DNA of 58,460 nucleotides from a virus, in the IMG/VR virus record IMGVR_UViG_3300028840_003750, positions 1-58,460 of that record. One strand, 5' to 3'. Position numbers and translations under genes: made by a program. Every line of letters starts with the position of its first letter. Within the stretch, counting starts at the first letter, position 1. A model generated the notes under the pieces. That model did not search any database, was not told the origin of the DNA, and worked only from the letters and a program-made list of their open reading frames with translations. Positions 8,160-49,477 of this stretch are shown piece by piece.

Positions 8160-8249
8160 GGTGAGAAAAAAAGTTTCATCTGATGATGTTTTTTCTTGCA
8201 TCAGCCTGAGCAGCTGCTATGATGTAGGTAGCTACCAAGGAGATAGCAG
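8160..8249 (+). promoter_or_regulatory. Repeated promoter and leader, copy 3
   Basis: TTGCAT 8196-8201, 16-bp spacer, TATGAT 8218-8223 with an extended -10 (TGCTATGAT), preceded by A and T tracts. The leader CCAAGGAGATAGCAG matches that of the 4623 gene. This is the best match to consensus of the three copies. Confidence 0.8.
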
Positions 8250-18710: not shown

Positions 18711-19015
18711 TGGTCAAGCGGACAAGTTGGAATAGGTAATGTAGGTATCTCAGGCTGCGGTGCCACAAGACTTATACCTTGTATAGATGGATCAGGTATA
18801 TCTATATCAATACCTGGTATGTTTGTCTTTATGGGTAATGTAGGTATCTCAGGCTGCGGTGCCACAAGACTTATACCTGGTATAGATGGATCAGGTATAT
18901 CTATATCAATACCTGGTATGTTTGGTTTAATCGGTTGTATTGGTATCTCAGGCTGTGGTACTGAAAAGCTTACGCCTGGTAGAGATGGATCAGGTAAGCT
19001 GCATAAGCTAGACAT
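18707..19015 (-). CDS. Pro/Ile-rich tandem repeat protein
   Basis: A 102-residue protein built of about three 33-residue units of the form NIPGIDIDIPDPSIPGISLVAPQPEIPTLPI, with proline every three to five residues and strictly alternating Ile. It ends PTCPLDQ. Such spacing suggests an extended, stiff polyproline-like rod or beta-helix-type stalk. Its place next to the spike gene suggests a tail-tip or spike-associated component. I know no homologous family. The gene overlaps the next by four bases. Confidence 0.65.
   Translation of the reverse strand: MSSLCSLPDPSLPGVSFSVPQPEIPIQPIKPNIPGIDIDIPDPSIPGISLVAPQPEIPTLPIKTNIPGIDIDIPDPSIQGISLVAPQPEIPTLPIPTCPLDQ
18735..19005 (-). repeat. 99-bp tandem repeats
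   Basis: Units start at 18735, 18834 and 18933 with a constant 99-bp period. The first two are nearly identical; the third has diverged. They encode the 33-residue units of the Pro/Ile-rich protein. Confidence 0.92.
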
Positions 19016-20442: not shown

Positions 20443-20499
20443 TTGACAGGTGCTAGTAGGTGCTAGTAGGTGTGCTATGTTTCACGTGAAACGGAGGAG
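20443..20499 (+). promoter_or_regulatory. Cassette A promoter with 10-bp spacer duplication and parS-like palindrome
   Basis: TTGACA 20443-20448 and an extended -10 (TGC-TATGTT, -10 at 20476-20481) are 27 bp apart. The spacer contains GGTGCTAGTA twice in tandem (20449-20458, 20459-20468). Removing one copy would leave exactly 17 bp, the spacing of the sister promoters. The palindrome TGTTTCACGTGAAACG (20478-20493) overlaps the -10, and GGAGGAG follows. Confidence 0.75.
20478..20493. promoter_or_regulatory. parS-like palindrome A
   Basis: TGTTTCACGTGAAACG matches the 16-bp bacterial parS consensus TGTTTCACGTGAAACA at 15 of 16 bases. Overlap with the -10 would also let a bound protein block transcription of cassette A. 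Confidence 0.7.
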
Positions 20500-20502
20500 A
20501 TG

Positions 20503-20799
20503 ATGAACGCTACAATCGCTAATTCAGCCGTAATCCCTGAAACCATTACTGAACCTATTCGGGTTGAGATTATCGGGGAACCAAATCCCTTGCTGCCTAT
20601 CAGACCGATGCGGCGACACGGTAATTGGCAGGTTGAGATAGAACCATGTAAGCAGTCAGAAGATGTTCTTGCTTTACTCCAAGCCCCAATCGGAACGGCC
20701 TACCAGGCTGGCTTCGTTGGGTGGCACCGCGGACAGGTTCTCGCATACGGCGTTAAACCACGAGATGCTGCTGAAGCGTTGCTCGCAAAAGCAGCATGA
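20503..20799 (+). CDS. Rightward cassette A protein
   Basis: A 98-residue protein of unrecognised family lying against the direction of the surrounding late genes. MNATIANSAVIPETITEPIRVEIIGEP begins the protein; the C-terminal half (SEDVLALLQAPIGTAYQAGFVGWHRGQVLAYGVKPRDAAEALLAKAA) looks like a compact alpha/beta domain. ATG 20503 has the better spacing from GGAGG; ATG 20500 is also possible. The gene is bracketed by two parS-like palindromes. Confidence 0.7.
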   Translation: MNATIANSAVIPETITEPIRVEIIGEPNPLLPIRPMRRHGNWQVEIEPCKQSEDVLALLQAPIGTAYQAGFVGWHRGQVLAYGVKPRDAAEALLAKAA

Positions 20800-20805
20800 G
20801 CTAAA

Positions 20806-20821
20806 TGTTTCACGTGAAACA
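20806..20821. promoter_or_regulatory. parS-like palindrome B (perfect match)
   Basis: TGTTTCACGTGAAACA is identical to the parS consensus, and the symmetry extends to 18 bp (ATGTTTCACGTGAAACAT). It lies between the 3' ends of two convergent genes with no promoter nearby, so promoter repression does not explain it. Confidence 0.8.
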
Positions 20822-20822
20822 T

Positions 20823-22040
20823 CTATGCCTCACCAAGGATTAGCGAGCCCTTCGGGATGAGCGTCAGCCGAGTCCGCTGGCCGCGTAGGTCAGCGGACTT
20901 AGTGTTTTCCAGGATCCAGAATGGCTCATCGATGTCCTCTTCTGGGATCACAACCCTAGCTGTTGTCCCGGAAGTCCAGATAGCCCCAGTTGAGCTAAGC
21001 ATCCCTTCTACCGCTCCGGTTATCTGAAAGCCGTTTTGTGACCTGGCACCATGCATCGTGGTAGCCATGATAAGTGCACGTTGCCGATCCGATGCGCGCT
21101 TATCGAATTTGTATAACGGTTTGAAAGCTGCACCACCTTCGCTCTTATAGGTATGCCTACCAGCTGGTATTGTCTCTAGCTGCACCTTTGGAAACGGTGA
21201 GCCTTCTGGACGTGGCGCTCCATCAACTATGATGCCAGCTGTAGGGGCGGTGGCGCTCTTTTGGCCTACCTTATCAGCTTCCTTACCTACTAGGACTATT
21301 TCGCTGTATTGCCCATCATTGGTTTCCCTAACCATGGGTGGGGGGTTATTTATAAAGAGATCGCTATTAGGTATTCCTGCAACGTTACTGTGGCAAATTG
21401 TGTATGATGGATCTTGCTGAAAGTCAGGCTTCGCTAACAGCAATCCGCCATTGACGTCTACTATTAGAACTAGCCCAAAGCGTGCATATATCCTAGCAGC
21501 AAAGGCATATGCCTTTTCGCCATCTCCAACCTGAATATCCTTCTTTTTCAGCTCGGTAGTGATAACGTTAGCTTGCTGGTTAGTGATAGCCTTTCCTGTC
21601 ATTGCTGATAGGTTTTCAGCCGCTGCGATTCGTATCTGATCAAACCCATACATCTCAAGAGCAGCTAGCACAGCGTCAGCTACCTGTGTTCTCTCGTTGA
21701 AGTTTCGGGCCAAGTATGGATCAGCGCTTCCCTCAAACGGTGTAACCAGGACAGTCTTTGCCTCAATGCTGTACTCTGGTCCGGTGTTAGGATACACCCG
21801 ATCGGCTGTAGTGATCAGCATCGTTGCTTGTCGCACGCCGTTTAGCTTCAGCGCTACAAGCCGACCCTTAGTTAGCAGTCTTCTAGCCTCGGGACGCTGC
21901 GCCTTGTTCGGCCGCGCTTGGATGCTCAGTGTCTTTAGCGGATCGAGGTAATTATCTCTCCACTCAAAGCGAGTCCACGACGTGACAGAGTTTCCCTCGT
22001 TATCGATCAGCTCGATTGAAACTCTGTTCTTGTCAGTCAT
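20823..22040 (-). CDS. Baseplate hub protein (Mu gp44/gpD-like)
   Basis: A 405-residue protein of the late-control D/gp27 hub family: N-terminal SWTRFEWRDNYLDPLKTLSIQARPN, EYSIEAKTVLVTPFEGSADP, a central helical LysM-adjacent region (NERTQVADAVLAALEMYGFDQIRI and GEKAYAFAARIYARFGLVLIVDVNGGLLL) and a C-terminal beta region ending TRLTLIPKGSLILGEA. The hub joins the tube to the spike. It follows the DNA-circularisation-like gene in transcription, the Mu order. Confidence 0.8.
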   Translation of the reverse strand: MTDKNRVSIELIDNEGNSVTSWTRFEWRDNYLDPLKTLSIQARPNKAQRPEARRLLTKGRLVALKLNGVRQATMLITTADRVYPNTGPEYSIEAKTVLVTPFEGSADPYLARNFNERTQVADAVLAALEMYGFDQIRIAAAENLSAMTGKAITNQQANVITTELKKKDIQVGDGEKAYAFAARIYARFGLVLIVDVNGGLLLAKPDFQQDPSYTICHSNVAGIPNSDLFINNPPPMVRETNDGQYSEIVLVGKEADKVGQKSATAPTAGIIVDGAPRPEGSPFPKVQLETIPAGRHTYKSEGGAAFKPLYKFDKRASDRQRALIMATTMHGARSQNGFQITGAVEGMLSSTGAIWTSGTTARVVIPEEDIDEPFWILENTKSADLRGQRTRLTLIPKGSLILGEA

Positions 22041-22076
22041 TGTTAACCGTGCTATGTTTCACGTGAAACGGAGAAG
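22030..22076 (+). promoter_or_regulatory. Cassette C promoter with parS-like palindrome
   Basis: TTGTCA 22030-22035, 17-bp spacer, TATGTT 22053-22058 preceded by TGC. The palindrome TGTTTCACGTGAAACG (22055-22070) overlaps the -10, and GGAGAAG precedes the ATG. The -35 lies inside the first codons of the hub gene on the other strand. Confidence 0.78.
22055..22070. promoter_or_regulatory. parS-like palindrome C
   Basis: TGTTTCACGTGAAACG, 15 of 16 matches to the parS consensus, placed as in cassettes A and D. Confidence 0.7.
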
Positions 22077-22199
22077 ATGATGAAGACGAAGAGATTTGTA
22101 GAGCTGCCCTGGAAAACCTACAAGCGTATCTTAGCACTCAAGGAAGCAACAGCTGCTGACTCAGCTAAATGTGTAGTCTTGAACGATTGCAGGAGCTAG
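22077..22199 (+). CDS. Small basic protein, cassette C gene 1
   Basis: A 40-residue protein (MMKTKRFVELPWKTYKRILAL...) with a basic start, a short helix and a C-terminal pair of cysteines. The ATGATG start follows GGAGAAG of the palindrome-bearing leader. Too short to classify. It is followed within seven bases by the next cassette gene. Confidence 0.6.
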   Translation: MMKTKRFVELPWKTYKRILALKEATAADSAKCVVLNDCRS

Positions 22200-22205
22200 T
22201 TACAA

Positions 22206-22601
22206 ATGCCAAAGCATATATGTCCTGACTGCAAACAGCCAAAGAAAACAGCTAAATCCAAAAGGTGCAGATCGTGTGCTGGAAAGCATCGTAAGGGTAA
22301 ACCTTACAAGGTAGTTAGCTTTACCATTGAACCAGAGCAAGCTACGTGCAACCTTGCATTCAAGCAAAAGCTACCCAAAAACAGGCTATCAAAAAGAGAA
22401 GTGCTACACATGGCTATTGAGCTATCTGGGCTAGCTATAGATCTATGTGATTTTGAATGCTTGGCATTTAGCCCAAGTGTTTCAGATGAGCTTAATGCTC
22501 TTAGGAAATATGTAAAAGCTCGCGCTGCCCGCTATGGTAGAATGCTTTCGTTTGAGCTAGCTCATGAGGTAAACGATGCCACGAAGACGAAAGCTATCTG
22601 A
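22206..22601 (+). CDS. Zinc-ribbon protein, cassette C gene 2
   Basis: A 131-residue protein. The N-terminus is a four-cysteine ribbon (CPDCKQPKKTAKSKRCRSC), followed by a basic KHRKGKPYK stretch. The rest is helical (KREVLHMAIELSGLAIDLCDF and SDELNALRKYVKARAARYGRML), which suggests nucleic-acid binding with a dimerising tail. No named family. Overlaps the next gene by 26 bp. Confidence 0.65.
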   Translation: MPKHICPDCKQPKKTAKSKRCRSCAGKHRKGKPYKVVSFTIEPEQATCNLAFKQKLPKNRLSKREVLHMAIELSGLAIDLCDFECLAFSPSVSDELNALRKYVKARAARYGRMLSFELAHEVNDATKTKAI

Positions 22602-22845
22602 GCTTCCAGTAAGGACATCTAGATTTAAGCACACTTGCTGCGTATGTCTCGACGATATCACTACTAGCCAGCGTTATCATGACGGTGGATACTTCAGACG
22701 CTCACATATATGGTGCGCTATCAAGGCTGAAAACGATCACTCAATAGTCAAGAGTAAAGAAGAGATCAATGAGGCAATAAGGCTGAAGTACGATGCTATA
22801 GCAAAGCAGGTTTACGCTAAGCACGATGCTAAGCATAGTACTTGA
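22576..22845 (+). CDS. Zinc-finger-like protein, cassette C gene 3
   Basis: An 89-residue protein with a PARP-like small finger arrangement (CCVCLDDITTSQRYHDGGYFRRSHIWC: C-x2-C then H/C) and a helical, charged tail. The CxxC-DxIxxGxx-HxxC style is common in prokaryotic zinc proteins of unknown role. Its 3' end overlaps the end of the leftward baseplate gene by 17 bp. Confidence 0.65.
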   Translation: MPRRRKLSELPVRTSRFKHTCCVCLDDITTSQRYHDGGYFRRSHIWCAIKAENDHSIVKSKEEINEAIRLKYDAIAKQVYAKHDAKHST

Positions 22846-23710
22846 GCAATGTTCCAGTAGGAATACCTGGCGAGCTGGCTGCCACAGGATTAAGCTCAAT
22901 AGCCTCCTCTAGGCTCATCCCATACTGACGCGCAAAGGCGTCAAGTGTTGTTGGGTTGACTACAATGAATCCGTTTTGCTTTCGCGCCTTATTACCTAGG
23001 CTTTTAGCCGTGTCGTCAAGGGCAGCCCAGAATTCCGTTAGTGCGTCAATAGCACCCGTGGCTACGAAGCTGTTAACAGCTATGGCAGTGTCAACCATAA
23101 GCTCAACTACTGCCTTTGCCTTGGTAATCAATGATAGCACATTGAGCTGAGCTAGGAATATGGCAGACTGAATAGCCCTGGCCATCTCTTCTAGCGAAAG
23201 CTCGAATGACTCAGAAGGCACCTCGATATCAATAGCTGATGCTGCGGTATCAGCTGCTGCTGCTACTGTAGCCAGGTCAGGTATATTGACGAAAAACTCC
23301 GATTGCTCGGCAGCTGGATCTTCTACATGTTTTTCAAAGTTGATCTGTACAGCTGCTCCAGCCCTATCCTGTGCTGTGATTCTTACGTTTCCACCTTTTA
23401 CAATAGCCTCATAGTTTCCCCTAACCGGATGCTCTAATGGTCCTGGTTTACCGTCAGATAGAATGGCCCACCATTCATTAAAGTGATTGGGGAAAGCGCC
23501 ACTGTATAGAGTGTTGTAGAACAGTAGAGTTATTGGGGTTGGCGGATGTATATCACCTGTATCTTCATGTCCTGCGCCGTCTACGTATGGCCATTCAATA
23601 CGGTTTTGCCTACGTCCAAACTGAAAGCTAATATCAGTATAACGCGAATGTGTAGATCCTCGCCACTTCAATGGCGGCAATCCCTCGATAACATTCCACG
23701 GATCTGTCAT
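22829..23710 (-). CDS. DNA-circularisation-type tail protein with LysM-like C-terminus
   Basis: A 293-residue protein. Residues 10-115 (PLKWRGSTHSRYTDISFQFGRRQNRIEWPYVDGAGHEDTGDI...) match the DNA_circ_N domain of Mu gp43-type tail proteins. A helical middle follows, and the C-terminal 45 residues (GFIVVNPTTLDAFARQYGMSLEEAIELNP) resemble a LysM module that could contact cell wall. Lies between the tape measure and hub genes. Confidence 0.75.
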   Translation of the reverse strand: MTDPWNVIEGLPPLKWRGSTHSRYTDISFQFGRRQNRIEWPYVDGAGHEDTGDIHPPTPITLLFYNTLYSGAFPNHFNEWWAILSDGKPGPLEHPVRGNYEAIVKGGNVRITAQDRAGAAVQINFEKHVEDPAAEQSEFFVNIPDLATVAAAADTAASAIDIEVPSESFELSLEEMARAIQSAIFLAQLNVLSLITKAKAVVELMVDTAIAVNSFVATGAIDALTEFWAALDDTAKSLGNKARKQNGFIVVNPTTLDAFARQYGMSLEEAIELNPVAASSPGIPTGTLLKYYA

Positions 23711-23712
23711 AG

Positions 23713-25977
23713 CTACAGCGCTTCTGCCAAAGAAGATACATCTGCAAATCGTCTCAATGCTGCTATTGCGGTATCGGCAGTATTTGCAAAAAGCCCAAGC
23801 TTTTGATTGGCTTCATCTGTATCAATGTCAACCATCTTTCCGCCAGGACCTCTTGCAGCCTTCTCTTCTGGCGTAAGATCTCTTTGCCCAATTGTTCTGC
23901 GAGCTGTCTCGGTTTGAGCAAGCTGAGCTATCAATCTCTGCTGCTCAGCTTGCTGCGCTTCGGTTTCACCACCAAAGAAGCTACGTCCAAGAAATCCACT
24001 GACACCAGGTTTCTGTAATGCATATAGACCCCGTCCGGTCATCTCTGCTGTTGTTGGGTCGGCTGCAACACTAGCTGCTATTTGCTTAGCAACTGTCTCG
24101 TTTACCCCTGCAGAGGTAAACCTCTTTACAAATTCCTGCTGTGTTATATCAGACACATCGCCTTTGAATACACCTTCTCTAGCCCCAGCTATCTGTGCCT
24201 CTGCCTTTAACCTTCTTTCACCAAGGGCTACAAGCTCAGCTCTGGCTTCAGGCGCAGCTCTGAAACCGGCTGGCCCACCAACTCGTCTTGTTAATCTCTC
24301 CTCTTCAACCTTTATCTTTTGCAGCTCTCGTTGACCCTCCTTTATTGCCATCTCTGGAGTTTTCGGCTTCTTGGATATGATTCCTAAAGCCTCAAGACCA
24401 TCAACAGCTAATCCTGCAGCTTCAGCCATGGCAGTAAAAGCTCTACCTGCGCCGCTAAAGTCTGTTGTCTCAATGAAACCAGCAATCTGCTGTATCGTAT
24501 CTGTAATAGCTGGTGTAAACTCTGAGTTAACCTGCGCAACAAGAGACTCCCATGCAGCTGTTAAGTTTGCGCTTGTCTGCTGCTGAGCAATACCTAGATC
24601 TTCCTCTATCTCTGTTCTTGCAGCTGATACGTTAGTAACATTGTCGATCTCTTGACGCAAACGCTGCATTGCAGTAGCGGTAGCAGCTGCCTCTTGCTCA
24701 GGTGTTGCCTTACCCTTGAATGGTGCTAGCTTTTCTTGACGTACCTTATTAAATAATGAGATCAGCGGGGAAACAGCACGGATCCCGCGAACGTCAAAGA
24801 TCTTTTGAAGCTGAGGTAGATTGCCCCTTGCGCCACCAATGATCTCAACAAGAAGATCCTGTATGTCCCTAGTCTGAGTCTTGCCCTTGTCTTTGAATAC
24901 TGAGACACCTGTCTCCTTTTTGATCATAGCCTCTTTTGCTACGACCTGCTTAAACATATTTTCAACAGCTGTTGCGGCTTCTTCACCGCTTGGTGTGGCA
25001 CGTCTGGCGATCTGTGTTAGTCCACCAAGTGTAGCTAATCCACCGGTCCCTCTAAGACCAAACCTGGCTGCAGCAGCAGCTATCTTGGGAAACTGAGCGG
25101 CTGCGTCCTCCATCTCAAAGGCGCCACGTTTACCCTGGATAGCCAAAAGAGCTAAAGCGTCTCCCATGTCTTCTACTGACTTAATGTCGAATTTCTCGAA
25201 CATGTCAGCGGCAGCCGAACCTATCGCTTCAAACTCAGTGCCTGTTGCTACAGCTATCTCAGCAAATACCTTCCCATATTCCCTAGCTAGTTCTAGCCTA
25301 CCAGTCTTGGAAACGAAACGCTCCTGAGCAGCTATAACACCACCAGCTTGTGCACCCCTTACATCTTGCGCTATACCCTCAGCCTCACGTCTTAGGGTTC
25401 GAGGATCAACCCTCCCTCCAACGGTGGTACCCTTAATAGCTAGCCTGGTAGCACGGTCCTGCAGCGCTATACCCTGGCGAGCAGCTAGCCCCGCTACACC
25501 GGTAGCGGCCAGCCCGATGGCGCCGATCCCACGGAGCGCCCCGCCAGCAACCCGGCCAGCGATCTGCCGAATCATCCGCGAGCGGGAGCGCTGGCGGCTC
25601 TGCGCTTGGCGCTGCTGTCGCCGGGCAGTGCGCTCTGCCTCCCGCCGAGCACGGCGCTCAGCCCGCAATCTGGCCCGCTCCTGCTGTTTCAGGAGGCGCA
25701 GATGGTGCCGTGCTGCCCGCTGCTGCGCCTGCCGTTGCGCTCGCTCTACACGCCGCACAGAAGCGAGCTGAGCCCGCTCCGTCGCCTTGACGGCCTTGAG
25801 CTGCTCCCGTTGCCGAGCTGCTGCTGCCTTCCGCGCCTCGGCCGCAGCACCACGCCCCATGCCCGTCGATCGCCTGACAGTGCGCTTGGTCCGCTTGGCT
25901 GACTGCTCGATCGAGCGGAACGCTCGACGCACCCCAGCCTGACCAGCTGCGCTGAAAGTGTAGCGGATATCAGGCAT
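23713..25977 (-). CDS. Tail tape measure protein
   Basis: A 754-residue tape measure, which sets tail length. It has an N-terminal Arg-rich coiled coil (residues 30-145, dense in ARQREQ and RAERRARREAERTARR), then GVAGLAARQGIALQDRATRLAIKGTTVGG and a TP901-type core with AAAQFPKIAAAAARFGLRGTGGLATLGGLTQIARRATPSGEEAATAVENMFKQV. At about 0.15 nm per residue this would give a tail near 110 nm (inference). The 5' part of the gene is much more GC-rich than the rest. Confidence 0.88.
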   Translation of the reverse strand: MPDIRYTFSAAGQAGVRRAFRSIEQSAKRTKRTVRRSTGMGRGAAAEARKAAAARQREQLKAVKATERAQLASVRRVERAQRQAQQRAARHHLRLLKQQERARLRAERRARREAERTARRQQRQAQSRQRSRSRMIRQIAGRVAGGALRGIGAIGLAATGVAGLAARQGIALQDRATRLAIKGTTVGGRVDPRTLRREAEGIAQDVRGAQAGGVIAAQERFVSKTGRLELAREYGKVFAEIAVATGTEFEAIGSAAADMFEKFDIKSVEDMGDALALLAIQGKRGAFEMEDAAAQFPKIAAAAARFGLRGTGGLATLGGLTQIARRATPSGEEAATAVENMFKQVVAKEAMIKKETGVSVFKDKGKTQTRDIQDLLVEIIGGARGNLPQLQKIFDVRGIRAVSPLISLFNKVRQEKLAPFKGKATPEQEAAATATAMQRLRQEIDNVTNVSAARTEIEEDLGIAQQQTSANLTAAWESLVAQVNSEFTPAITDTIQQIAGFIETTDFSGAGRAFTAMAEAAGLAVDGLEALGIISKKPKTPEMAIKEGQRELQKIKVEEERLTRRVGGPAGFRAAPEARAELVALGERRLKAEAQIAGAREGVFKGDVSDITQQEFVKRFTSAGVNETVAKQIAASVAADPTTAEMTGRGLYALQKPGVSGFLGRSFFGGETEAQQAEQQRLIAQLAQTETARRTIGQRDLTPEEKAARGPGGKMVDIDTDEANQKLGLFANTADTAIAALRRFADVSSLAEAL

Positions 25978-25984
25978 ATCGTGC

Positions 25985-26011
25985 TATAGTTTCAAGCGAA
26001 ACGGAGCAATC
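25985..26011 (+). promoter_or_regulatory. Cassette E extended -10 promoter with degenerate palindrome
   Basis: TGC-TATAGT (-10 at 25985-25990) is close to consensus, but no -35 is visible. The palindrome is eroded to AGTTTCAAGCGAAACG: both GTTTC/GAAAC arms are kept while the CACGTG centre is lost. GGAG precedes ATGATG. Confidence 0.55.
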
Positions 26012-26101
26012 ATGATGGGTTGTAGCTTAGTGCCACAAGGGCTTGTGTGCATACCAAGAGCACCTAACGACGATGGTGTAATCGTAGAGTGTTGGCTCTA
26101 G
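26012..26101 (+). CDS. Micro-protein, cassette E
   Basis: A 29-codon frame with ATGATG behind ACGGAGCAATC, in a leader that copies those of cassettes A, C and D. Peptide MMGCSLVPQGLVCIPRAPND continues to ECWL and has three cysteines. Its stop overlaps the stop of the converging leftward gene by four bases. The conserved leader is the main reason to call it. Confidence 0.45.
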   Translation: MMGCSLVPQGLVCIPRAPNDDGVIVECWL

Positions 26102-26457
26102 CGACGTCTACCAGCTCGGCTAGTGATCCGTCGGATCATAGCATCGATATCCATACCTGCTATGATACCGATCTGCGTGAAGTTTGAGAAACCTCTAGCT
26201 TGCACGAAAATCCCATATAGCACGCTAGCGCTTCCCATTGCCAGCTCTACCAGCCACCCATCTCGTGAGTTGCTAAGCTTTTTGGCAGTAGTTGCTTTGC
26301 GTAAGTTGGTTGTACGGTCCTGGTAAGTCTTGGTAGCTAGCTCTTCTGCCGCTGCTGCCTCTGCTATAGCCATTGCCTCAGACTCGATGCTATCGAGATC
26401 TGAAAGCGCAGAAGCAGCATGCTGACTGACATTGTCAGTCTGTCTTACCATTATCAT
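26098..26457 (-). CDS. Protein between tail chaperone-position and tape measure genes
   Basis: A 119-residue protein with an acidic helical N-terminal half (SALSDLDSIESEAMAIAEAAAAEELATKTYQ) and a basic C-terminus (RRITSRAGRRR). It overlaps the preceding gene by 23 bp in a different frame. The position directly before the tape measure is that of the extended tail-assembly chaperone, but no classical slippery heptamer is visible. Confidence 0.6.
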   Translation of the reverse strand: MIMVRQTDNVSQHAASALSDLDSIESEAMAIAEAAAAEELATKTYQDRTTNLRKATTAKKLSNSRDGWLVELAMGSASVLYGIFVQARGFSNFTQIGIIAGMDIDAMIRRITSRAGRRR

Positions 26458-27337
26458 CTTTGGTCACGTCTATGTATTTGTCTTGCAATGCGCAACCTGC
26501 ATGATGATGTGGACCAGGTGTTGACGGATCTGAACATAGACAAGAGCATAATATACGCTCATCGTCTGCCTGGTTATCGATCTCAGGCTCTGGCTTATGC
26601 CAATCACCTACCAGATCCTGACATACCTTTTCCCATCCTTCTTCGCCATTAAGCGCAGCCTTCATGGCATCGACTGCTGCTAGCCGATCTGTATCCCAGC
26701 GCATAGTAAACAGGCATAGAAGATTGGTTAGCACCTCCCTGTTATACATTGCTAGCAACGCTTCTGGCATGTCGGCAATGTCAAATGCCGCCACAAGCTT
26801 TTCTCTTTCTTCGTCAAGATCAAGCTCCTCGGCAAGAGGTAGCCCGAGCATGCGAGCTATAGCCTCATTATAGAGGTTTACCAGCCCGTTAAGTGAAAAC
26901 GTATCAAAAATATCACGCATGAATGTAGGCGTGATAAACGAGCGTTTAGACGGATTTTCTGGATCTCGAGCAGCTCTGAACAGAGCCTGGATTGTTCCCT
27001 CATCTACGGTTACAGCAGGATCCTCTCTGAATGAATCAGAGCCTTTCCCAGCATGCTTAGCCAACGATGCTGTATGAGCATGAGCCGCTACAAGAGCTAG
27101 ATTGTCATCTGTCTTCTTGTTGAGCCTAAAGACAATATCAAGAGGGAAGTCTGTTCCGTCATGATCGACTAAGCTACCTAGTACAGCTGATGCGTCAACC
27201 TTCAGCTCTTTTTGCTTGGCTGAATGCAACGCAGCTGATAGCTTGCTTATATGACGCTCCTCACGCTTTGGGGCACCTGGCTCATCTCTTGAATACTTCT
27301 GTCTAAGCGTGTCCTCAATACCTTGATTGTTTGGCAC
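26435..27337 (-). CDS. Probable tail assembly protein
   Basis: A 300-residue, largely helical acidic protein between the tube and tape measure genes. It has SLNGLVNLYNEAIARMLGLPLAEELDLDEEREKLVAAFDIADM in the centre and, at the end, a Cys/His cluster (CSCLCSDPSTPGPHHHAGC) that may bind metal. Gene order suggests a tail-assembly chaperone; no sequence family is recognised. Confidence 0.6.
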   Translation of the reverse strand: MPNNQGIEDTLRQKYSRDEPGAPKREERHISKLSAALHSAKQKELKVDASAVLGSLVDHDGTDFPLDIVFRLNKKTDDNLALVAAHAHTASLAKHAGKGSDSFREDPAVTVDEGTIQALFRAARDPENPSKRSFITPTFMRDIFDTFSLNGLVNLYNEAIARMLGLPLAEELDLDEEREKLVAAFDIADMPEALLAMYNREVLTNLLCLFTMRWDTDRLAAVDAMKAALNGEEGWEKVCQDLVGDWHKPEPEIDNQADDERILCSCLCSDPSTPGPHHHAGCALQDKYIDVTKDDNGKTD

Positions 27338-27339
27338 TG

Positions 27340-27957
27340 TTATCTCAGTTTCATTGGCCTAGAAAACCTAGGCTTAGGTGGTGGCTTGTGCTTTTCAGAC
27401 AGCTTCATAGCAGCCATAACACATAGCCAATGTCCGTCTGTTAGCTGCTGCTGTGGCAGCCCATAGTATCTATCAGGCTCTGGCGCCCCTGTCCAGCCAT
27501 TTTTGCATTGAGCTAACGACACTGCTTGCTGTACATTGCTGATATGCTCAGCCCCGATCGCAAGAGTCTCGATCCACGCTTCTGAGTCAATTCTGCCGAA
27601 TGTTGGAGATACATCAAGCAACGGTTGAACTACAGCTGAGGCTAGCAGATTGAAGTCTACAGTGTGTAGATCCATTATCTCGCCCAGTGATCCAAACACA
27701 GGGATATCACCCTCATGTAAGCTTAGTACTATAAGCCTTGCCTGAACGATTGAATCTCTGATAACCTTAGCCTCTGAATCGCTTTCGTCAAAAGCCTCCT
27801 CTATCTCGATGCTTGTTAGCCCATAAACGAAAGTTGGGCACCCTGGCCGCACAATACCCGGAAACGGAAGCGAAACAGGTAAGCGCGGCCTAGGTGCCCG
27901 GTTTAGCAACCGGAACAAGCGCTCCGGAGACAGGTGCTGTGGTGGCTGCCGTAGCAC
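27340..27957 (-). CDS. Probable tail assembly protein
   Basis: A 205-residue protein next to the tube gene. The first 35 residues are Arg/Pro-rich and encoded by a GC-rich patch. The remainder is helical with a GWTGAPEPDRYYGLPQQQLTDGHWLCVMAAM segment. Its position is that of the first tail-assembly chaperone; family not recognised. Confidence 0.6.
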   Translation of the reverse strand: MLRQPPQHLSPERLFRLLNRAPRPRLPVSLPFPGIVRPGCPTFVYGLTSIEIEEAFDESDSEAKVIRDSIVQARLIVLSLHEGDIPVFGSLGEIMDLHTVDFNLLASAVVQPLLDVSPTFGRIDSEAWIETLAIGAEHISNVQQAVSLAQCKNGWTGAPEPDRYYGLPQQQLTDGHWLCVMAAMKLSEKHKPPPKPRFSRPMKLR

Positions 27958-27971
27958 TTGGCTACACTATG

Positions 27972-28352
27972 CTACTCCCACTTGGGAACCTTCCCGACTG
28001 ACTGAAGCTCGTATGCAGCGGTTGTCGCAGTCCCGGTACCACTTGAGATTGTAATAGATCGCACAAGGAATGCAGCGTTGATCTCCTTGGTTGACCCAAT
28101 CTGCTGTACTACAACGTTTAGCTCAGCATACTCAAGCTTTGCTTTTACCAGATCAACCTCCAGACCAAAGGCTGGGTTAATTGCATTAGTGCCACTTATA
28201 CGGCACTTCTGCGGACCAGGGCTAACGCCAGCTGCTCCCTCTACAACAGTATCAACATCCTGATCGTTATCTCCCCATTCAACCTGAGCATCAGTGTTCT
28301 CGGCAAAAAGAACACCTTCGATTGTTATGATTAGCTGAGTATACAGTGCCAT
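27972..28352 (-). CDS. Tail tube protein
   Basis: A 126-residue protein immediately after the sheath gene, the invariant place of the tail tube in contractile phages. The sequence is a compact beta-barrel pattern (YTQLIITIEGVLFAENTDAQVEWGDNDQDVDTVVEGAAGVSPGP and KLEYAELNVVVQQIGSTKEINAAFLVRSITISSGTG). The size suits a tube subunit. Confidence 0.75.
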   Translation of the reverse strand: MALYTQLIITIEGVLFAENTDAQVEWGDNDQDVDTVVEGAAGVSPGPQKCRISGTNAINPAFGLEVDLVKAKLEYAELNVVVQQIGSTKEINAAFLVRSITISSGTGTATTAAYELQSVGKVPKWE

Positions 28353-28360
28353 AATGACCT

Positions 28361-29929
28361 CTAGTAGCTCGGACCGCCTTCGCCGATCTCAGCTTCCCAT
28401 GAGATTCGATGTAGCACAGCCTGAACGGTACACTTGGTCGGAAAACCACCGCGACCATTATGGTTCACCTGGATAGAATCGATCATCTCTTGCACCCTAT
28501 CAGGTCTAAGCAATGGCCCATCGTAAACCCCAAGCGGGTTATTGCCAGCCATATCCTCAATAAGAAGCTTGAGCATTGAGCGAATATGGCGCGGGATAGA
28601 TGTTCTTGCCGGCGGCGGCTGATTACCAATAGGATCATCTGCAGCATTAGGTTGTTTAGTGGAATCCCATCTCTGGGCAGCAACAGCCCAGAACAGAGTG
28701 ACCACAGAGAAGATATGCCCCTCTCTTGCACGATAATCAGGAAGAAGACTATCGCTCAATGAGCGTGTTAAAACGGTCCTTGTTAGCTGGGGTGTATTGT
28801 TCCCAATAACCCGCATGCTGGAGATACCAGCATTCAGATCTGCCTTTACCTCTGCAGCATTATGACGATCAGACACATTGAAAGGAATTGGAATGCCACT
28901 AGTAACGATTTCGTTACAATTAGCTGCCGGGTATGCAATCTCTCGCTGACGTAGCAATGAGCAGAAGTGTGCCGCAAGCATTGCGGTTGTTAAGTCCGAC
29001 CCTTGCTGTCGAATAGCCCTGGCCTGGACAGTGTTACACTGAGCTGATTGAGTAACAGAAGCACCTTGCGGCTGTGTACACACTAGACCAAAGTGAGCTT
29101 GCTGATCTTTTGCATTCACAGGCAGCAGCTGAGCTTTGAGCATAGCGAGGTACTCGCCAAGCCCGTTATCTGTTGCTGTTAGCGTCGTGCTAGCTGTCTT
29201 GGCAAGCACATGGTAGAACCAATTACCAGTGGCGATATTAGCAATGGCGGCTGACCAATCATCGTCTCCACCACCTGCTGTTATCGTGCTCTTTGCAAGT
29301 GACTGAGTATTACCAGTACCAGATAGCACCTTTATCCGAATGCCATGAGTCGCATCTGCCCCGATGATCTGATCTCCCCTTGGGCCTTTCTGGGCAGCGA
29401 TTACGTCAACCTTCCAGTCAGGTCCAGCGCCATCAATGGCGGCAACAGCTGTTACCTGTAACCTACCCTCATCCCAGCCATTCAGGGCATCCGCCAAACC
29501 CTCAGCAGTAGTCTGCTGATTATCACCATCTTCAGCTGAATATGTTGGGTACTCACTATGGCAATGCAGCTGCCAAGTTGTAGCCTTATCGGATACACCG
29601 CTTACTACTAGCTTTACTGCAGCATTTGCCCCTGCTGACTCAGTTGCAGCACATGCCCAGATTGTCTGATCTTGCGGTTGAGATACCTGTTGCCTATACA
29701 TGGCATACAGCTCTGACCGATCTCCGAATCTAGCACGAGCATCAGCATCATCTCTGATTGGATTGTCTTGATCTACAACATCCAATGGCTCAGAGCCGGC
29801 CGATGTACGGTTGCCAACTAGCAGCACGCCACGCTCCGGGGCTTGTCCAGCGCTTGGACCAATGGCGAAAAGATACTCCCGATAAACACCGGGAGTCGGA
29901 TCAAACGGATCTCTGCCTGTAAGAGTCAT
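28361..29929 (-). CDS. Tail sheath protein (Mu gpL-like)
   Basis: A 522-residue contractile sheath subunit. Recognisable features are the N-terminal TPGVYREYLFAIGPSAGQAPERGVLLVGNRTSAG, a long variable middle domain, an AREGHIFSVVTLFWAVAAQRWDS segment, and the C-terminal KCTVQAVLHRISWEAEIGEGG strand that interlocks neighbouring subunits. It drives contraction over the tube encoded next. Confidence 0.88.
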   Translation of the reverse strand: MTLTGRDPFDPTPGVYREYLFAIGPSAGQAPERGVLLVGNRTSAGSEPLDVVDQDNPIRDDADARARFGDRSELYAMYRQQVSQPQDQTIWACAATESAGANAAVKLVVSGVSDKATTWQLHCHSEYPTYSAEDGDNQQTTAEGLADALNGWDEGRLQVTAVAAIDGAGPDWKVDVIAAQKGPRGDQIIGADATHGIRIKVLSGTGNTQSLAKSTITAGGGDDDWSAAIANIATGNWFYHVLAKTASTTLTATDNGLGEYLAMLKAQLLPVNAKDQQAHFGLVCTQPQGASVTQSAQCNTVQARAIRQQGSDLTTAMLAAHFCSLLRQREIAYPAANCNEIVTSGIPIPFNVSDRHNAAEVKADLNAGISSMRVIGNNTPQLTRTVLTRSLSDSLLPDYRAREGHIFSVVTLFWAVAAQRWDSTKQPNAADDPIGNQPPPARTSIPRHIRSMLKLLIEDMAGNNPLGVYDGPLLRPDRVQEMIDSIQVNHNGRGGFPTKCTVQAVLHRISWEAEIGEGGPSY

Positions 29930-29935
29930 TACCTG

Positions 29936-30280
29936 CTACCTCCCACTGCTAGGCGGTGGGCTTGTTTGAGCAATAGAAGCAATAAGCTTTTCATGAGCTT
30001 CATTACGCGTTTTGAAGATTCCTCTTTCAAGTATCTCAAGCTCACCCTGTTTTTCAGCCTTAAGCAAATACCTGTTGTCTACCTTATCGGTAAACTCAGG
30101 GAAAACCTCAGCTACTGGCTCATACAGCTCATGAAGCTTATACCCTTCATAGGTTGGGCTATCATAACCAGTTACCTGGATACCTGGCTTTCGCTTCATA
30201 CCAGCAAAGCGCAATGGCCTACCAGAGGGGTGCATTACAAGATGAGGTGGAATACCCCTCACCAAAAGATATCGCATCAT
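29936..30280 (-). CDS. Small head-tail region protein
   Basis: A 114-residue protein just before the sheath gene. Basic N-terminal half (PHLVMHPSGRPLRFAGMKRKPGIQVTGYDSPTYEGYKLHELYEP), helical C-terminal half. It overlaps its upstream neighbour by four bases. In Mu a small DUF2635 protein is in this place, but the match is not clear. Confidence 0.55.
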   Translation of the reverse strand: MMRYLLVRGIPPHLVMHPSGRPLRFAGMKRKPGIQVTGYDSPTYEGYKLHELYEPVAEVFPEFTDKVDNRYLLKAEKQGELEILERGIFKTRNEAHEKLIASIAQTSPPPSSGR

Positions 30281-30828
30281 GGTGTCATACTCCCGGCCCT
30301 AAGCAGGTGCCATTGAGTGTCTTGAAAACGGAGATCAACGAACCAAGCCTTAGAAGCTGGAAGCGTTATCAATGAAACACTGGGCCCAGAAGGCGCAACC
30401 TCGGAAAAAATCTCATATGTATAAGCCTCAGTGTCTAGCCTTGTAATAGTCAGCTTTGTCCCATTTTGCACTAATGCAACGTTGGGAGCATCAGCTGTAT
30501 ATGCGCCTATTGTAAGCTGACGATTTGCAGTAAGCGTATTAGCTGGCAAAAAACGAACGAGCTTCTTGTCAGCTCGTATCGTTGCATCTTCATTCGCTAG
30601 ATTATCACCAGCATCATCTTGCTCAACTGGCACCCATCTTCCAGCATTCCCGCCAACATGGTTAAGGATATAGTAGCCATCTGCATAGCTAGCATCGCCT
30701 GGCACCCATTGCCTAAGCAGATTAGGCGCATCTAGCGTGATTGCGTAATGAGGAACAATCGGGCCCGGCCGCGCTGATAGGTTTTCAGCGGTTGGATAAA
30801 TCTCAATCGTGCGTATTGAAAGCGCCAT
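30277..30828 (-). CDS. Virion beta protein with a GRWVPV motif
   Basis: A 183-residue protein. It contains VGGNAGRWVPVEQ, similar to the GRWINLV/GRWLRLI repeats of the fibre-like protein at 40105-41445, followed by NTLTANRQLTIGAYTADAPNVALVQNGTKLTITRL. These are typical of phage decoration or fibre proteins. The rightward cassette F promoter overlaps its start region. Confidence 0.55.
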   Translation of the reverse strand: MALSIRTIEIYPTAENLSARPGPIVPHYAITLDAPNLLRQWVPGDASYADGYYILNHVGGNAGRWVPVEQDDAGDNLANEDATIRADKKLVRFLPANTLTANRQLTIGAYTADAPNVALVQNGTKLTITRLDTEAYTYEIFSEVAPSGPSVSLITLPASKAWFVDLRFQDTQWHLLRAGSMTP

Positions 30829-30866
30829 CGAAACGTGCTAGGCTAGAAGGTGAAACGGAGGAAGAT
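30816..30866 (+). promoter_or_regulatory. Cassette F promoter
   Basis: TTGAAA 30816-30821, 17-bp spacer, TGC-TAGGCT with the -10 at 30839-30844, then a GTGAAACGGAGGAAG leader. Only the right half of the palindrome (GTGAAAC) remains. The leader is closely related to that of the 41.5-kb cassette. Confidence 0.72.
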
Positions 30867-31151
30867 ATGAGCGGTTTCCAATGCTACTGCTTCAGTCATG
30901 CTGACAAGGTTATAGCTGAAGGATTAGATGATGCTTGGACTATATGGTGCGAGCATACAGGCGAGTCAAAAGAAGACTATGTTGAATACGATAACCCTCG
31001 TCTAATGAGACTAGATGAAAAGATAACCATCTGGTGCGAAAAGGATGGTAACATATCAGAGCCTGGAAATGGCGCCATACCTCTTAGCTATACTGTTGCT
31101 TTTTGGATAGCTATGGAAGGTCGTGGTTTTCTTTGCTCAACAGAGTGGTAG
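30867..31151 (+). CDS. Cassette F protein 1
   Basis: A 94-residue acidic protein (MSGFQCYCFSHADKVIAEGL...) containing the repeated phrase TIWCE (WTIWCEHTG and ITIWCEKDG). A GGAGG ribosome site is six bases upstream. It lies against the surrounding late genes. Function unknown. Confidence 0.68.
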   Translation: MSGFQCYCFSHADKVIAEGLDDAWTIWCEHTGESKEDYVEYDNPRLMRLDEKITIWCEKDGNISEPGNGAIPLSYTVAFWIAMEGRGFLCSTEW

Positions 31152-31153
31152 CT

Positions 31154-31459
31154 ATGCTTGAACCAGTTAAGACCATCCTGGTAGTAAAAGACAATGCTTC
31201 ACCGCAGCTATGCAGGGTCAGTGAAGCTAGCTTTCGTTTACATACCAGGTTTAGACTTGCCGATGAGGCTAGAGAGTATAGACAATACCTAGGTGAGCTT
31301 TTCGGATGGGTACCAGAAACAACCTACATATGCTCAATATGTGGGAACGAGAAAGACAGGGCGATGGGCTATTATGGCCCAAGTAATACATGCGTAAACT
31401 GCTATGTAGCTAACGGGAAAAGATACCCAAACAGGTGGATAGATCCATTCAAAGACTAG
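31154..31459 (+). CDS. Cassette F zinc-ribbon protein
   Basis: A 101-residue protein with a helical N-terminal part (EASFRLHTRFRLADEAREYRQYLGELFGW) and a C-terminal CSICGNEKDRAMGYYGPSNTCVNC zinc ribbon. ATG 31154 follows the previous stop by two bases. Its end overlaps the end of the converging leftward gene by four bases. Probably a nucleic-acid- or protein-binding adaptor. Confidence 0.65.
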   Translation: MLEPVKTILVVKDNASPQLCRVSEASFRLHTRFRLADEAREYRQYLGELFGWVPETTYICSICGNEKDRAMGYYGPSNTCVNCYVANGKRYPNRWIDPFKD

Positions 31460-32217
31460 ATCCCATCTGGTGTGTAGCTACCGTCTGGATAGGTAAACGT
31501 CCTTTCCAGCACAGGTACGCCGTCATGACAGATGCTCACAGGGCTATCTGCTATTGGTATAGTTACGCTTGATTGTTTGGTTAGCTCTTCTACCTCAACG
31601 ATGGCTACCAGAGCAGGATAGTCCTTGCCGCTTGCTTTCGCTCCAACCTTAAAGACAGAAGCGTCATCAATACCGATCCGTCTAATTGCTCTGCTACCTA
31701 TGAAGCGAAAGTCCCATGTAGCTGTATCCCCTATCAGATCTTTGACATAGGTTCCAGTTGCTACTCCGTCATACCCAGACTGTGGGAATGTCGGGTGAAA
31801 CCCATCGTTGCTACACTGTGTTAGCACAGAAGCAACAGCATTCAATAGTCCTGTTCGAAGCTCCAACGCTGCACGACTAGGCAGCTCTTCAGCAATATAC
31901 ATTAGATGTATATTGCGTAGTCGTCGCACTATGAACGTGGTGAACAGTGACTCTGTGCTTTGACCTGGCCACCATATATACAGCGATGGGACAGGTCGCT
32001 TAACCTTATGTCCCCTTGGCTCGTCAGGATCGAAGTCGAAGGCATGTTTGCTAGGAACAGCTTGTGATGATGTGCCGTTGAGCTTGGCTAGCTTGGTGTT
32101 TAGGTTTGCATTGAGACAATGAGCATAGAAGTCCAGCAGCAAAGAGACAACAGGATCTGATAGCTTCTCCTGTGCTCTCCCAGCTGGTATCGGTAGCTCT
32201 AATGCCCCTACGCTCAT
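31456..32217 (-). CDS. Head-tail region virion protein
   Basis: A 253-residue protein between connector genes and the sheath, the position of the tail terminator/completion proteins. It has an N-terminal helix (SDPVVSLLLDFYAHCLNANLNTKLAKL), a VPSLYIWWPGQSTESLFTTFIVRRLRNIHLMYI strand-rich centre and RTGLLNAVASVLTQ helix. No family assigned; coupled to its neighbour by a four-base overlap. Confidence 0.6.
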   Translation of the reverse strand: MSVGALELPIPAGRAQEKLSDPVVSLLLDFYAHCLNANLNTKLAKLNGTSSQAVPSKHAFDFDPDEPRGHKVKRPVPSLYIWWPGQSTESLFTTFIVRRLRNIHLMYIAEELPSRAALELRTGLLNAVASVLTQCSNDGFHPTFPQSGYDGVATGTYVKDLIGDTATWDFRFIGSRAIRRIGIDDASVFKVGAKASGKDYPALVAIVEVEELTKQSSVTIPIADSPVSICHDGVPVLERTFTYPDGSYTPDGI

Positions 32218-32960
32218 ATTGTGCTTACTACGGCTCCGTCTGATACTCTACGCCAGTTTGAGCTATCACTAGTAGCCATAGTGCGGCCACCTACATCGTC
32301 TGTTACTATGCAAGTCTGACCAGACGGAGATGGGCTCTTGTAGCCTGGGTTTGAGACATTTGTAAGCTCATCGACTGTGTACGCAGTGATCTGTAATGTC
32401 CCGTCCCTTACCTCTAGACCACGAGCGATAACACGCGACCCGTCAGTTGTAGCAATCTGAACTGCAGGGTATAGCTGAAGCCTTCTAGCTGATGCACTAA
32501 ACCTTACATACGGACTATCAGCGTCATCATGAATACCTATAGTCCCACGAAACGTTAAGTTGCTATCACGAGCTGAAGCTAGGTTATGCCAAAATGATAG
32601 TGGACGCTTCTTTATACCATTATAGAAGCAATCTATGTGGATCTCCTGCTGCTCCTGATCTATTCCGTCAGGAGGCGGTGGACTGTAATAGCTACCCTCA
32701 ATAGCAATAGCTAAAGCTGGGATAGAAGGACTAATCGGATTGGTATTGTTGTCAATGTTAACACCAAACCATCCGACAGTGTTCTTTTTGAATGTAGGCG
32801 CTGCAGGATCATTGTCGAATGTCCTAAACAGCACTCGTCCAGTATAGTCACCAGCATCATAGATGTGAGAGCTATACTGATCACCAGTATCAGGTGCTAT
32901 ACCCATCAGAAGATTCCTTAGTCTTTTAAAAAGACCTAGCCCTAGCCCAAGTCTGCTCAT
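32214..32960 (-). CDS. Head-tail region virion protein
   Basis: A 248-residue protein with a short hydrophobic, Gly-rich N-terminus (RLGLGLGLFKRLRNLLMG) and a long beta-rich body (TGRVLFRTFDNDPAAPTFKKNTVGWFGVNIDNNT and LTFRGTIGIHDDAD). Unrecognised; gene order indicates a structural role near the neck. Confidence 0.55.
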   Translation of the reverse strand: MSRLGLGLGLFKRLRNLLMGIAPDTGDQYSSHIYDAGDYTGRVLFRTFDNDPAAPTFKKNTVGWFGVNIDNNTNPISPSIPALAIAIEGSYYSPPPPDGIDQEQQEIHIDCFYNGIKKRPLSFWHNLASARDSNLTFRGTIGIHDDADSPYVRFSASARRLQLYPAVQIATTDGSRVIARGLEVRDGTLQITAYTVDELTNVSNPGYKSPSPSGQTCIVTDDVGGRTMATSDSSNWRRVSDGAVVSTI

Positions 32961-33610
32961 TAGATGTAGACTGTAATAGGATCGGAAGTGGTTCCAGGAC
33001 CATACACACGCCCAAAAAACACATCATGTCTCTCCCCGTCAGCTCCTGGCAGTAATCCCCTATACCTGCTAAGCACGGTAGGGTCTGAGGGCACATCTCC
33101 GTCATAACCTAGGCGGATGTTACCAGTTGAGCCATGTCGGATCTGTCTCCCAAAGGCAGGTCTAGCCCTTCCAACATCAGCAAAGTCGAGCATGATATCA
33201 CGAACACCAAACTCAAAAGACCCGCCACCAAGCAGCTGAGCAGGTACGACTAACTTAGTAGGCTTCAATATACCTTGCTCAATCCCACATGACACTGTCT
33301 CTCCGCCGTCTGTATCTGTTAGGTATACTCTAGCGGTTGCTTCCACCCCATCCCAGTTAGGTCCTGTAAAAAAGATTGGATCAGTCGTGTTATACCTACC
33401 AGCTGCTACAGACGTTGTAACAGATACACCACGAGGTAGGCGCCAATCATCAAGAGACATTAGCGCTCCGTTAAGAGCTGCCCCGGTATACTCCTGCTCT
33501 GACGTGCTTGTCCCGATGCTTGTCTTGATCCCATTAGGATCTACGATCTCGGAAAGCGCAAACACATGCGCCATCTTGGCCGGATATAGTTTCTCTGTAG
33601 CAGCTCCCAT
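32960..33610 (-). CDS. Head-tail region virion protein
   Basis: A 216-residue beta-rich protein (WDGVEATARVYLTDTDGGETVSCGIEQGI and GGGSFEFGVRDIMLDFADVGRARPAFG). It follows the DUF1320-like connector gene with a one-base overlap. No family recognised. Confidence 0.55.
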   Translation of the reverse strand: MGAATEKLYPAKMAHVFALSEIVDPNGIKTSIGTSTSEQEYTGAALNGALMSLDDWRLPRGVSVTTSVAAGRYNTTDPIFFTGPNWDGVEATARVYLTDTDGGETVSCGIEQGILKPTKLVVPAQLLGGGSFEFGVRDIMLDFADVGRARPAFGRQIRHGSTGNIRLGYDGDVPSDPTVLSRYRGLLPGADGERHDVFFGRVYGPGTTSDPITVYI

Positions 33611-34071
33611 TAGAACACACCTCCGGCGAAAGTCATACGTTGCTCTTGCTCTTCATCATTCGGATCTGCAGGGTAAACCTCAGCACCCTCATTGTATGCC
33701 TGACTCTGCTCTTGATCAAGCTCGATCTCCCTTAGCCTGAGATCCATGAGCTTTTCCTTTAGCTCTTCTTTTCGCTTATCCCATCCGCCTCTTGTGTACT
33801 CAGGATGCCGTCTACCCATACGGATCTCAAATGCATCCAGGCATACTGTTACCAGATCTCTGGGCATAGGATCTAGTGCTCTGATCTTTGCGATAGAGTC
33901 TGCCCCATATGTCTTACGAAGCTGTGTCTCTACGTCAAGCCCTTCAGCATCATCAATGAACGCATTAACATTGTCTTTCCAATGCCCATCCTGCTCATCG
34001 TCGAAAACGTCTAGCATCAGCTCACGAGTGATTCGACGTTTCACGTTTTCGATGTTGATGTAATAGCCCAT
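33610..34071 (-). CDS. Head-tail connector, gp36 (DUF1320)-like
   Basis: A 153-residue protein. The helical run RRITRELMLDVFDDEQDGHWKDNVNAFIDDAEGLDVETQLRKTYG and DPMPRDLVTVCLDAFEIRMGRRHPEYTRGG match the style of DUF1320 neck proteins, which plug onto the portal ring. The C-terminus is charged and helical. It is upstream of the sheath and downstream of the capsid gene, as in Mu. Confidence 0.7.
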   Translation of the reverse strand: MGYYINIENVKRRITRELMLDVFDDEQDGHWKDNVNAFIDDAEGLDVETQLRKTYGADSIAKIRALDPMPRDLVTVCLDAFEIRMGRRHPEYTRGGWDKRKEELKEKLMDLRLREIELDQEQSQAYNEGAEVYPADPNDEEQEQRMTFAGGVF

Positions 34072-34104
34072 TCGTGTTATGTTTCACGTGAAACGGAGGA
34101 GATA
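34055..34104 (+). promoter_or_regulatory. Cassette D promoter with parS-like palindrome
   Basis: TTGATG 34055-34060, 17-bp spacer, TGT-TATGTT with the -10 at 34078-34083. The palindrome TGTTTCACGTGAAACG (34080-34095) overlaps the -10, and GGAGGAG precedes the ATG. Confidence 0.78.
34080..34095. promoter_or_regulatory. parS-like palindrome D
   Basis: TGTTTCACGTGAAACG, 15 of 16 matches to the parS consensus, about 12 kb from sites A-C. Confidence 0.7.
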
Positions 34105-34245
34105 ATGAAAGTTCTAGCTTCGATCCACACACCGCAAAATGAGTCTAGGGAGACACCAGATCCTGAGCTATTAAGGCCATTGCTTTGGAATGCGAAAAGA
34201 TCCCACGATAGACGAAAAAAGGATGGGATTTATAACCACCGCTAG
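34105..34245 (+). CDS. Small basic protein, cassette D
   Basis: A 46-residue protein (MKVLASIHTPQNESRETPDP...) with an Arg/Lys-rich C-terminus (KRSHDRRKKDGIYNHR). A strong GGAGGAG site sits in the palindrome-bearing leader. Too short to classify; it may bind nucleic acid. Confidence 0.6.
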   Translation: MKVLASIHTPQNESRETPDPELLRPLLWNAKRSHDRRKKDGIYNHR

Positions 34246-37903: not shown

Positions 37904-38353
37904 CTACTGTTCGTTCAGGACCCTGTCATGTACCTCGCCTAACGACCTTGCGCCACGCTGGCCAGCTTCAACGGTAAGTGTCTGCCCGAGCACAGCCTTA
38001 GCCATCTCAGCGCCCATGAAGTCTGCTAATAGCTTATGAACACCCTTTGCGCCATCTGAGATATTGAATCGAATCAGCTTGCCATTGTCGTCAATCTCTG
38101 CGCATAGTGGACCCCAGCCATTAGCATCAATACCAAGTATGCCATTAAGAACACCTAGTAACCCTACACGATTGATACCATCATTAACACCAAGACGATC
38201 AATAGTATCTACTTGACAAGTAGGATGATCCGCCAACCTATTGTTACATGGTACTCTCGAGATTATGAGAGCCATGACAGCTTCTGAATCTGCCTCAACC
38301 ATCGAGTTGAGCCGCTCAATGATCTCATCAAGTGTTAGCTGTATCTGGCTCAT
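37904..38353 (-). CDS. Hybrid protein carrying a duplicated portal segment
   Basis: A 149-residue protein. Residues 1-95 (MSQIQLTLDEIIERLNSMVE... VGLLGVLNGILGIDANGWGPLCAEIDDNGKLIRF) look like a small conserved phage protein. The C-terminal 50 residues (NISDGAKGVHKLLADFMGAEMAKAVLGQTLTVEAG...) copy portal residues 312-360 almost perfectly. The DNA of the shared part is identical over 108 bp, so the original C-terminus has been replaced by a recent duplication from the portal gene. Confidence 0.7.
   Translation of the reverse strand: MSQIQLTLDEIIERLNSMVEADSEAVMALIISRVPCNNRLADHPTCQVDTIDRLGVNDGINRVGLLGVLNGILGIDANGWGPLCAEIDDNGKLIRFNISDGAKGVHKLLADFMGAEMAKAVLGQTLTVEAGQRGARSLGEVHDRVLNEQ
37920..38068 (-). 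repeat. Duplicated portal segment, downstream copy
   Basis: 149 bp matching 38844-38992 without gaps, identical from 37961 to 38068. Forms the 3' half of the hybrid gene. Confidence 0.95.

Positions 38354-49402: not shown

Positions 49403-49477
<75 letters not shown>

Follow-up and report, generated by a model that had tools for sequence, protein, structure and literature searches.

The virus record IMGVR_UViG_3300028840_003750 of IMG/VR, a contig of 58,460 bases which was analysed over its full length (here called the window), carries four copies of a palindrome resembling parS, the centromere site to which the chromosomal partition protein ParB binds in many bacteria. The question raised by this locus is which protein such sites could serve on a phage. 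The most probable answer is that the chromosomal ParB of the host binds and loads at the four palindromes, which sit on a myophage with no recognisable ParB.

The 14-bp core GTTTCACGTGAAAC is found in four exact copies, at positions 20479, 20807, 22056 and 34081. Three of the sites, named A, C and D, read TGTTTCACGTGAAACG (20478, 22055 and 34080) and site B reads TGTTTCACGTGAAACA (20806), so that a search of the window recovers all four palindromes where a preliminary description of the sequence had placed them. When up to three mismatches to the 16-mer are allowed the same four sites are the sole matches, while shuffled windows contain a mean of 0.16 matches and none of 100 shuffles reaches four. 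The base composition of the window predicts 2.2e-4 exact copies of the 14-mer and 9e-7 of the 18-mer. Among the perfect palindromes of at least 12 bp only the GTTTCACGTGAAAC core recurs, and the palindrome of site B is the longest perfect one of the window. A chance origin, already excluded in the preliminary description, is rejected, also when A, C and D are taken as one event. Compared to the chromosomal parS consensus TGTTNCACGTGAAACA (PMC7022226), site B matches in 16 of 16 positions and sites A, C and D in 15 of 16, in line with the earlier identification of the 16-mer as parS.

Sites A, C and D lie within a direct repeat of 36 nt, 94–97% identical between copies, on either side of which the sequences are unrelated (coordinates of all features are collected in the table). 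The repeat has the consensus GTG(C/T)TATGTTTCACGTGAAACGGAG(G/A)AGAT(G/A)ATGAA and is composed of an extended -10 element (TGnTATGTT), the palindrome, a Shine-Dalgarno sequence and a start codon; the palindrome starts within the -10 element and is predicted to reach to about +5. Being part of one repeat, the three sites are copies of a single module and not independent events, as their shared flanks had suggested from the beginning. Site B shares with the modules the palindrome alone and is placed between converging stop codons at 20799 and 20823, where no promoter, leader or terminator was found. Since B has the palindrome without the module, there are at least two independent occurrences of the site in the window, and copying of the leader is no explanation for B. 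All four sites are located between genes, provided that open reading frame (ORF) A starts at the ATG at 20503 and not at the upstream GTG at 20470; the ATG is preferred because of the leader repeat.

The -10 element of module A is preceded by a TTGACA at 20443, 27 bp on its 5' side. The spacer of this putative promoter includes a tandem 10-bp duplication GTGCTAGTAG (20449–20475), which shifts TTGACA from 17 to 27 bp and is possibly a promoter-down change. A related leader without the palindrome precedes a 94 amino acid ORF. Its Shine-Dalgarno sequence and the bases presumed to be transcribed first (GTGAAACGGAGGA) are like those of the modules, while the -10 element is different, and of the palindrome one parS half-site (GTGAAAC) is retained. 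A search of IMG/VR with the longer leader pattern GTTTCACGTGAAACGGAGNAGAT gave no matches.

As the preliminary description had noted, no gene for ParA or ParB is visible. Profiles for ParB (PF02195 and TIGR00180), for ParA (AAA_31) and for phage integrase had no match in the window at E≤10, a Pfam scan of its 85 ORFs returned no Par family, and no plasmid replication initiator was recognised in it. The window thus differs from phage-plasmids with a ParABS system, where parA and parB are on the same element, and has the configuration of phi29, with several parS-type sites on a phage without a ParB gene.

To our knowledge the Bacillus phage phi29 is the only known case of a phage using the ParB of its host. 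It carries four sites of the type TGTTTCACGTGGAACA with one mismatch each (10445, 15903, 17243 and 18760), three of them inside annotated genes and none in a repeated promoter leader, and there is no ParB product among its 35 annotated features. Trapping of the phi29 genome in spores is reportedly aided by Spo0J, the ParB of B. subtilis (Meijer et al. 2005, as summarised in PMC9437464). The window shares with phi29, on whose genome host ParB reportedly acts, the four sites and the lack of ParB; it differs in that phi29 is a podovirus of small size with a spore-forming host, and there the transcriptional block comes from Spo0A. With chromosomal ParABS systems the window has in common the identical 14–16 bp palindrome in several copies across kilobases, but its sites are on a virus, without parA and parB, and partly fused to promoters. 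The phage-plasmids P1 and RedRock (PMC7157519) also have centromere-like sites, but these phages encode ParA and ParB, to neither of which the window has a match, and use sites of their own, which in RedRock are 8-bp direct repeats (PMC7157519).

For the promoter position of A, C and D the nearest likeness is found in P. aeruginosa, where ParB at the intergenic sites parS3 and parS4 reduces transcription of the neighbouring genes by repressing adjacent promoters (PMC5521831). Those are chromosomal genes near oriC with parS beside the promoters, whereas in the window parS would overlap the -10 element and the start point. Given phi29 and P. aeruginosa, both halves of the proposed mechanism have precedents, in different organisms. 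Phage genes controlled by CtrA in Alphaproteobacteria represent repeated gain of sites for a host cell-cycle protein, described as 'lytic deferment' (PMC9437464); CtrA differs in being a response regulator, ParB being a centromere-binding CTPase clamp.

The palindrome is frequent in other phages. The exact 18-mer is present in at least 120 IMG/VR stretches and a scrambled palindrome of the same composition in none. At least 16 bp of the 18-mer are found in 315 of 50,697 named phage records, against none for either of the two scrambled, composition-matched palindromes used as controls; a control keeping the window's own flanks gave 8 imperfect chance records versus 450 for parS. parS is strongly over-represented in phages, mostly without a phage ParB: 16 of 18 named parS phages sampled have no ParB_N match, and metagenomic records with 4–7 sites, which may be fragments, likewise lack ParB. 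Multiple sites are carried by Ruegeria phage V10, Bromius and Arian (three each), vB_BcoS-136 (four) and bajarodino virus 3 (six). No report of host-type parS across phages was found in the literature consulted, which was thin on subscription papers and did not include preprints.

The commonest names for the 18-mer are phages of Listeria, Microbacterium, Arthrobacter, Gordonia, Bacillus and Lactobacillus, microviruses and inovirus-type genomes. Phages of Enterobacteriaceae, bacteria which have no chromosomal par genes (PMC7022226), were absent from the ten commonest names and from 60 evenly spread rows. The palindromic Pseudomonas form (P. aeruginosa parS2 and parS3) occurs in 108 records, including Mycobacterium (27), Pseudomonas (20, in second place) and Klebsiella (10, jumbo phages among them), and in the Mycobacterium and Klebsiella records it is intragenic among the matches listed. 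A mixed half-site form is found in Pseudomonas (37 records), Arthrobacter (28), Bacillus (24) and Stenotrophomonas (13). Pseudomonas phages, not prominent with the sequence of the window, are thus brought up by the Pseudomonas-type variants, and the variants appear to track host groups only in part. Intergenic positions account for 37% of 324 distinct sites (248 loci) compared to 8.3% of random positions, a 4.5-fold enrichment. A general overlap of the sites with a TATGTT promoter element was considered for the other phages and rejected: at -3, 49% of the site arms have A and 13% have T. The fusion to a promoter thus appears to be particular to the phage of the window.

Some of the surveyed genomes deserve separate mention. 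In four records, from Pseudomonas syringae phages and a Ruegeria phage (MT670418.1, MZ348426.1, MN905160.1 and MH015255.1), parS-type sites are found no more than a few hundred bases from the start, and one of these records has its site inside an annotated terminal repeat; these early-lying sites are perhaps on the first DNA entering the cell. An inovirus genome of 6.2 kb (PQ006097.1, our L256) contains six parS cores and no ParB. In MH271321.1 (L251) and related Microbacterium phages parS is within a gene for an HTH DNA-binding protein, a position common to many of them, and Quhwah, the one member of the Microbacterium group examined, has a ParB_N protein elsewhere in its genome.

Recruitment of host ParB, proposed in the preliminary description, is the best explanation in view of the enrichment in phages, the variants partly following the host and the example of phi29. 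Judged from the sequences, binding of host ParB to sites A–D is likely, and it is the part of the proposal which we hold with most confidence. ParB carrying cytidine triphosphate would close as a clamp and slide along the phage DNA, marking and condensing the 14-kb stretch, and the loaded genome would be linked to the ParA and SMC machinery of the host. That bound ParB also silences the small plus-strand cassettes behind A, C and D is a closer question, on which we are slightly on the doubting side; with the palindrome over about -10 to +5 such a block would end once ParB is displaced or becomes diluted, as in phage replication. Site B would serve ParB loading only. The switch of late cassettes that had been suggested earlier agrees with the location of A, C and D on putative promoters. 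It does not agree with B, and what would be switched is a set of small genes on the plus strand rather than the late operon. In analogy to what is reported of phi29 in sporulating Bacillus, the probable gain would be that the phage genome is silently carried or segregated while the cells are slow or dormant; segregation, dormancy, protection and regulation are all conceivable effects.

Several observations weigh against recruitment of host ParB or its promoter part. A promoter scan of the window lists C alone, with A unlisted and D under the threshold, and the count of promoters is no higher than in shuffles, as for weak promoters; for this reason it is from the recurrence of the module, and not from a score, that promoters are deduced at A, C and D. 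In the survey the intergenic enrichment is alike in divergent, tandem and convergent gaps, so that a promoter role is not general and a DNA-loading site fits better than a general promoter operator; some sites are within coding sequence, and the records are not independent, many being close relatives and many of one cluster. The parS likeness is to the bacterial consensus and not to the site of a given host: the head protein, terminase and helicase have distant and mixed relatives, and the best matches of the SSB, to proteobacterial models, are a weak hint. When the major head protein, by itself or aligned with that of L125, and the hub, sheath or portal protein were searched against IMG/VR and the GTDB genomes, no relative spanning sites A–D came up, and a single relative altogether, the 4.7-kb record L125, whose head protein is 74% identical and which stops short of the position of site D.

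Among the other explanations, the sites could be the centromere of a phage-plasmid prophage which is partitioned by host ParAB, without any regulatory role. A phage-plasmid, suggested in the preliminary description, is compatible with the sequence, given that there is no integrase match and that an HTH_3 repressor-like gene and a protein with DnaA domain IV are present, and several sites, one of them leaderless (B), suit a centromere; lysogeny is however only putative, no plasmid replication initiator is recognised, virulent phages such as phi29 carry parS too, and three of the four sites are tied to promoters, which makes a pure centromere unlikely. Rather more unlikely is that the palindromes are operators of a phage repressor, either the HTH_3 protein or an unrecognised small protein among the many ORFs without family match, which controls the cassettes and whose operators look like parS by coincidence. 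The position of A, C and D over the -10 element and start point would be typical of an operator, but the site is exactly the universal parS, B, which has no promoter, is a perfect palindrome of 18 bp, no parS-like site was found in the early region near the HTH_3 gene or within the early leaders (4588 and 8215), and the palindrome, unlike scrambled ones, recurs in many unrelated phages.

The evidence for binding would equally serve an improbable decoy, in which the phage copies titrate host ParB off the chromosome and disturb segregation and SMC loading to the gain of the phage. Lytic phages with several sites (phi29-like phages, the Lactobacillus phage Bromius and the Bacillus phage vB_BcoS-136) would be in keeping with sabotage; the number of sites, mostly one to four per genome, is not, ParB is needed for short-term growth in few bacteria (PMC7022226), and the promoter fusion is left unexplained. 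It is very improbable that the sites are without function, as a chance palindrome copied with its leader or as an RNA hairpin or terminator. While A, C and D do go back to one leader, B stands apart as an 18-bp perfect palindrome, and scrambled palindromes are absent from the surveyed phages. The RNA hairpin or terminator was rejected on its own account, with leader folding at z -0.4 to +0.8 relative to shuffles, B weakly at z -1.4, and no terminator calls.

Phage exploitation of host ParB is already known from phi29; what is new is an unrelated myophage, the fusion of parS to the promoter leaders of inserted cassettes, and evidence for host-type parS being widespread in phages without ParB. 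If host ParB binds, a phage without detectable segregation genes would be plugged into the segregation and condensin machinery of its host, and the survey suggests that phi29 would be one example of a general strategy. Rather tentatively, carrying the host centromere site may be a widespread and repeatedly acquired viral strategy, seen in tailed phages as well as in genomes assigned to the microviruses and inoviruses. With the same reserve, its hosts would include Firmicutes, Actinobacteria and Proteobacteria among other groups, and phages loading host ParB and SMC onto their DNA could be treated like a chromosome, with partition, dormancy or recognition as self as the gain. We are no more confident that in the lineage of the window parS is also a switch, by which expression of the cassettes reads the ParB state of the DNA; through a fusion of parS and promoter of this kind, ParB would join the host proteins serving phages as switches.

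Table. Coordinates of the parS-type sites, their modules and cassettes, and associated genes in the window.
Feature	Position	Strand	Description
HTH_3/HTH_31 protein	4171–4521	+	sole classical repressor-like protein found
Module A	20472–20507	+	extended -10 TGCTATGTT 20473–20481; core GTTTCACGTGAAAC 20479–20492; Shine-Dalgarno GGAGGAG; ATG
Cassette ORF A	20503–20799	+	98 amino acids; without family match
Site B	20805–20822	none	18-bp perfect palindrome ATGTTTCACGTGAAACAT
Baseplate hub-like late gene	20823–22040	-	parts sites B and C; phrog_177, 3.4e-10
Module C	22049–22084	+	extended -10 TGCTATGTT; TTGTCA 17 bp upstream (22030–22035); core 22056–22069; Shine-Dalgarno; ATG
Cassette C	22080–22845	+	ORFs of 39, 131 and 89 amino acids; without family match
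Related leader without palindrome	30836–30869	+	TGCTAGGCT AGAAG GTGAAACGGAGGA; precedes 94 amino acid ORF
Module D	34074–34109	+	extended -10 TGTTATGTT; TTGATG 17 bp upstream (34055–34060); core 34081–34094; Shine-Dalgarno; ATG
Cassette ORF D	34105–34245	+	46 amino acids

The contig has a 144-bp terminal repeat. Its late genes are on the minus strand (helicase, terminase, Mu-like portal, head protein, sheath, tape measure and baseplate), and small plus-strand cassettes are interspersed among them, three of which begin with a parS module. Translation of cassette C reveals Cys-rich (CxxC) motifs in its two larger ORFs. The early leaders at 4537–4625 and 8164–8252, both on the plus strand, are 85% identical across 89 bp and have an extended -10 element and an AAGGAG Shine-Dalgarno sequence; they form a second family of leaders, and in the latter of the two a palindrome GGTAGCTACC, which may be a further operator, lies across the start region. 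The DnaA domain IV protein (Bac_DnaA_C, 4.9e-11; 58004–58354, plus strand) adjoins the terminal repeat and may bind DnaA boxes.

Repeats of other kinds include a direct repeat of 158 bp, 94% identical, between the 3' end of the portal gene (37911–38068) and the next gene (38835–38992), three tandem 99-bp units in a small gene of the tail region (18731–18996), and, in the SSB gene at its 3' end, a perfect tandem duplication of 33 bp (2818–2883). Two tRNA genes are present on the minus strand, tRNA-Thr (TGT) at 49033–49107 and tRNA-Met (CAT) at 49404–49474.

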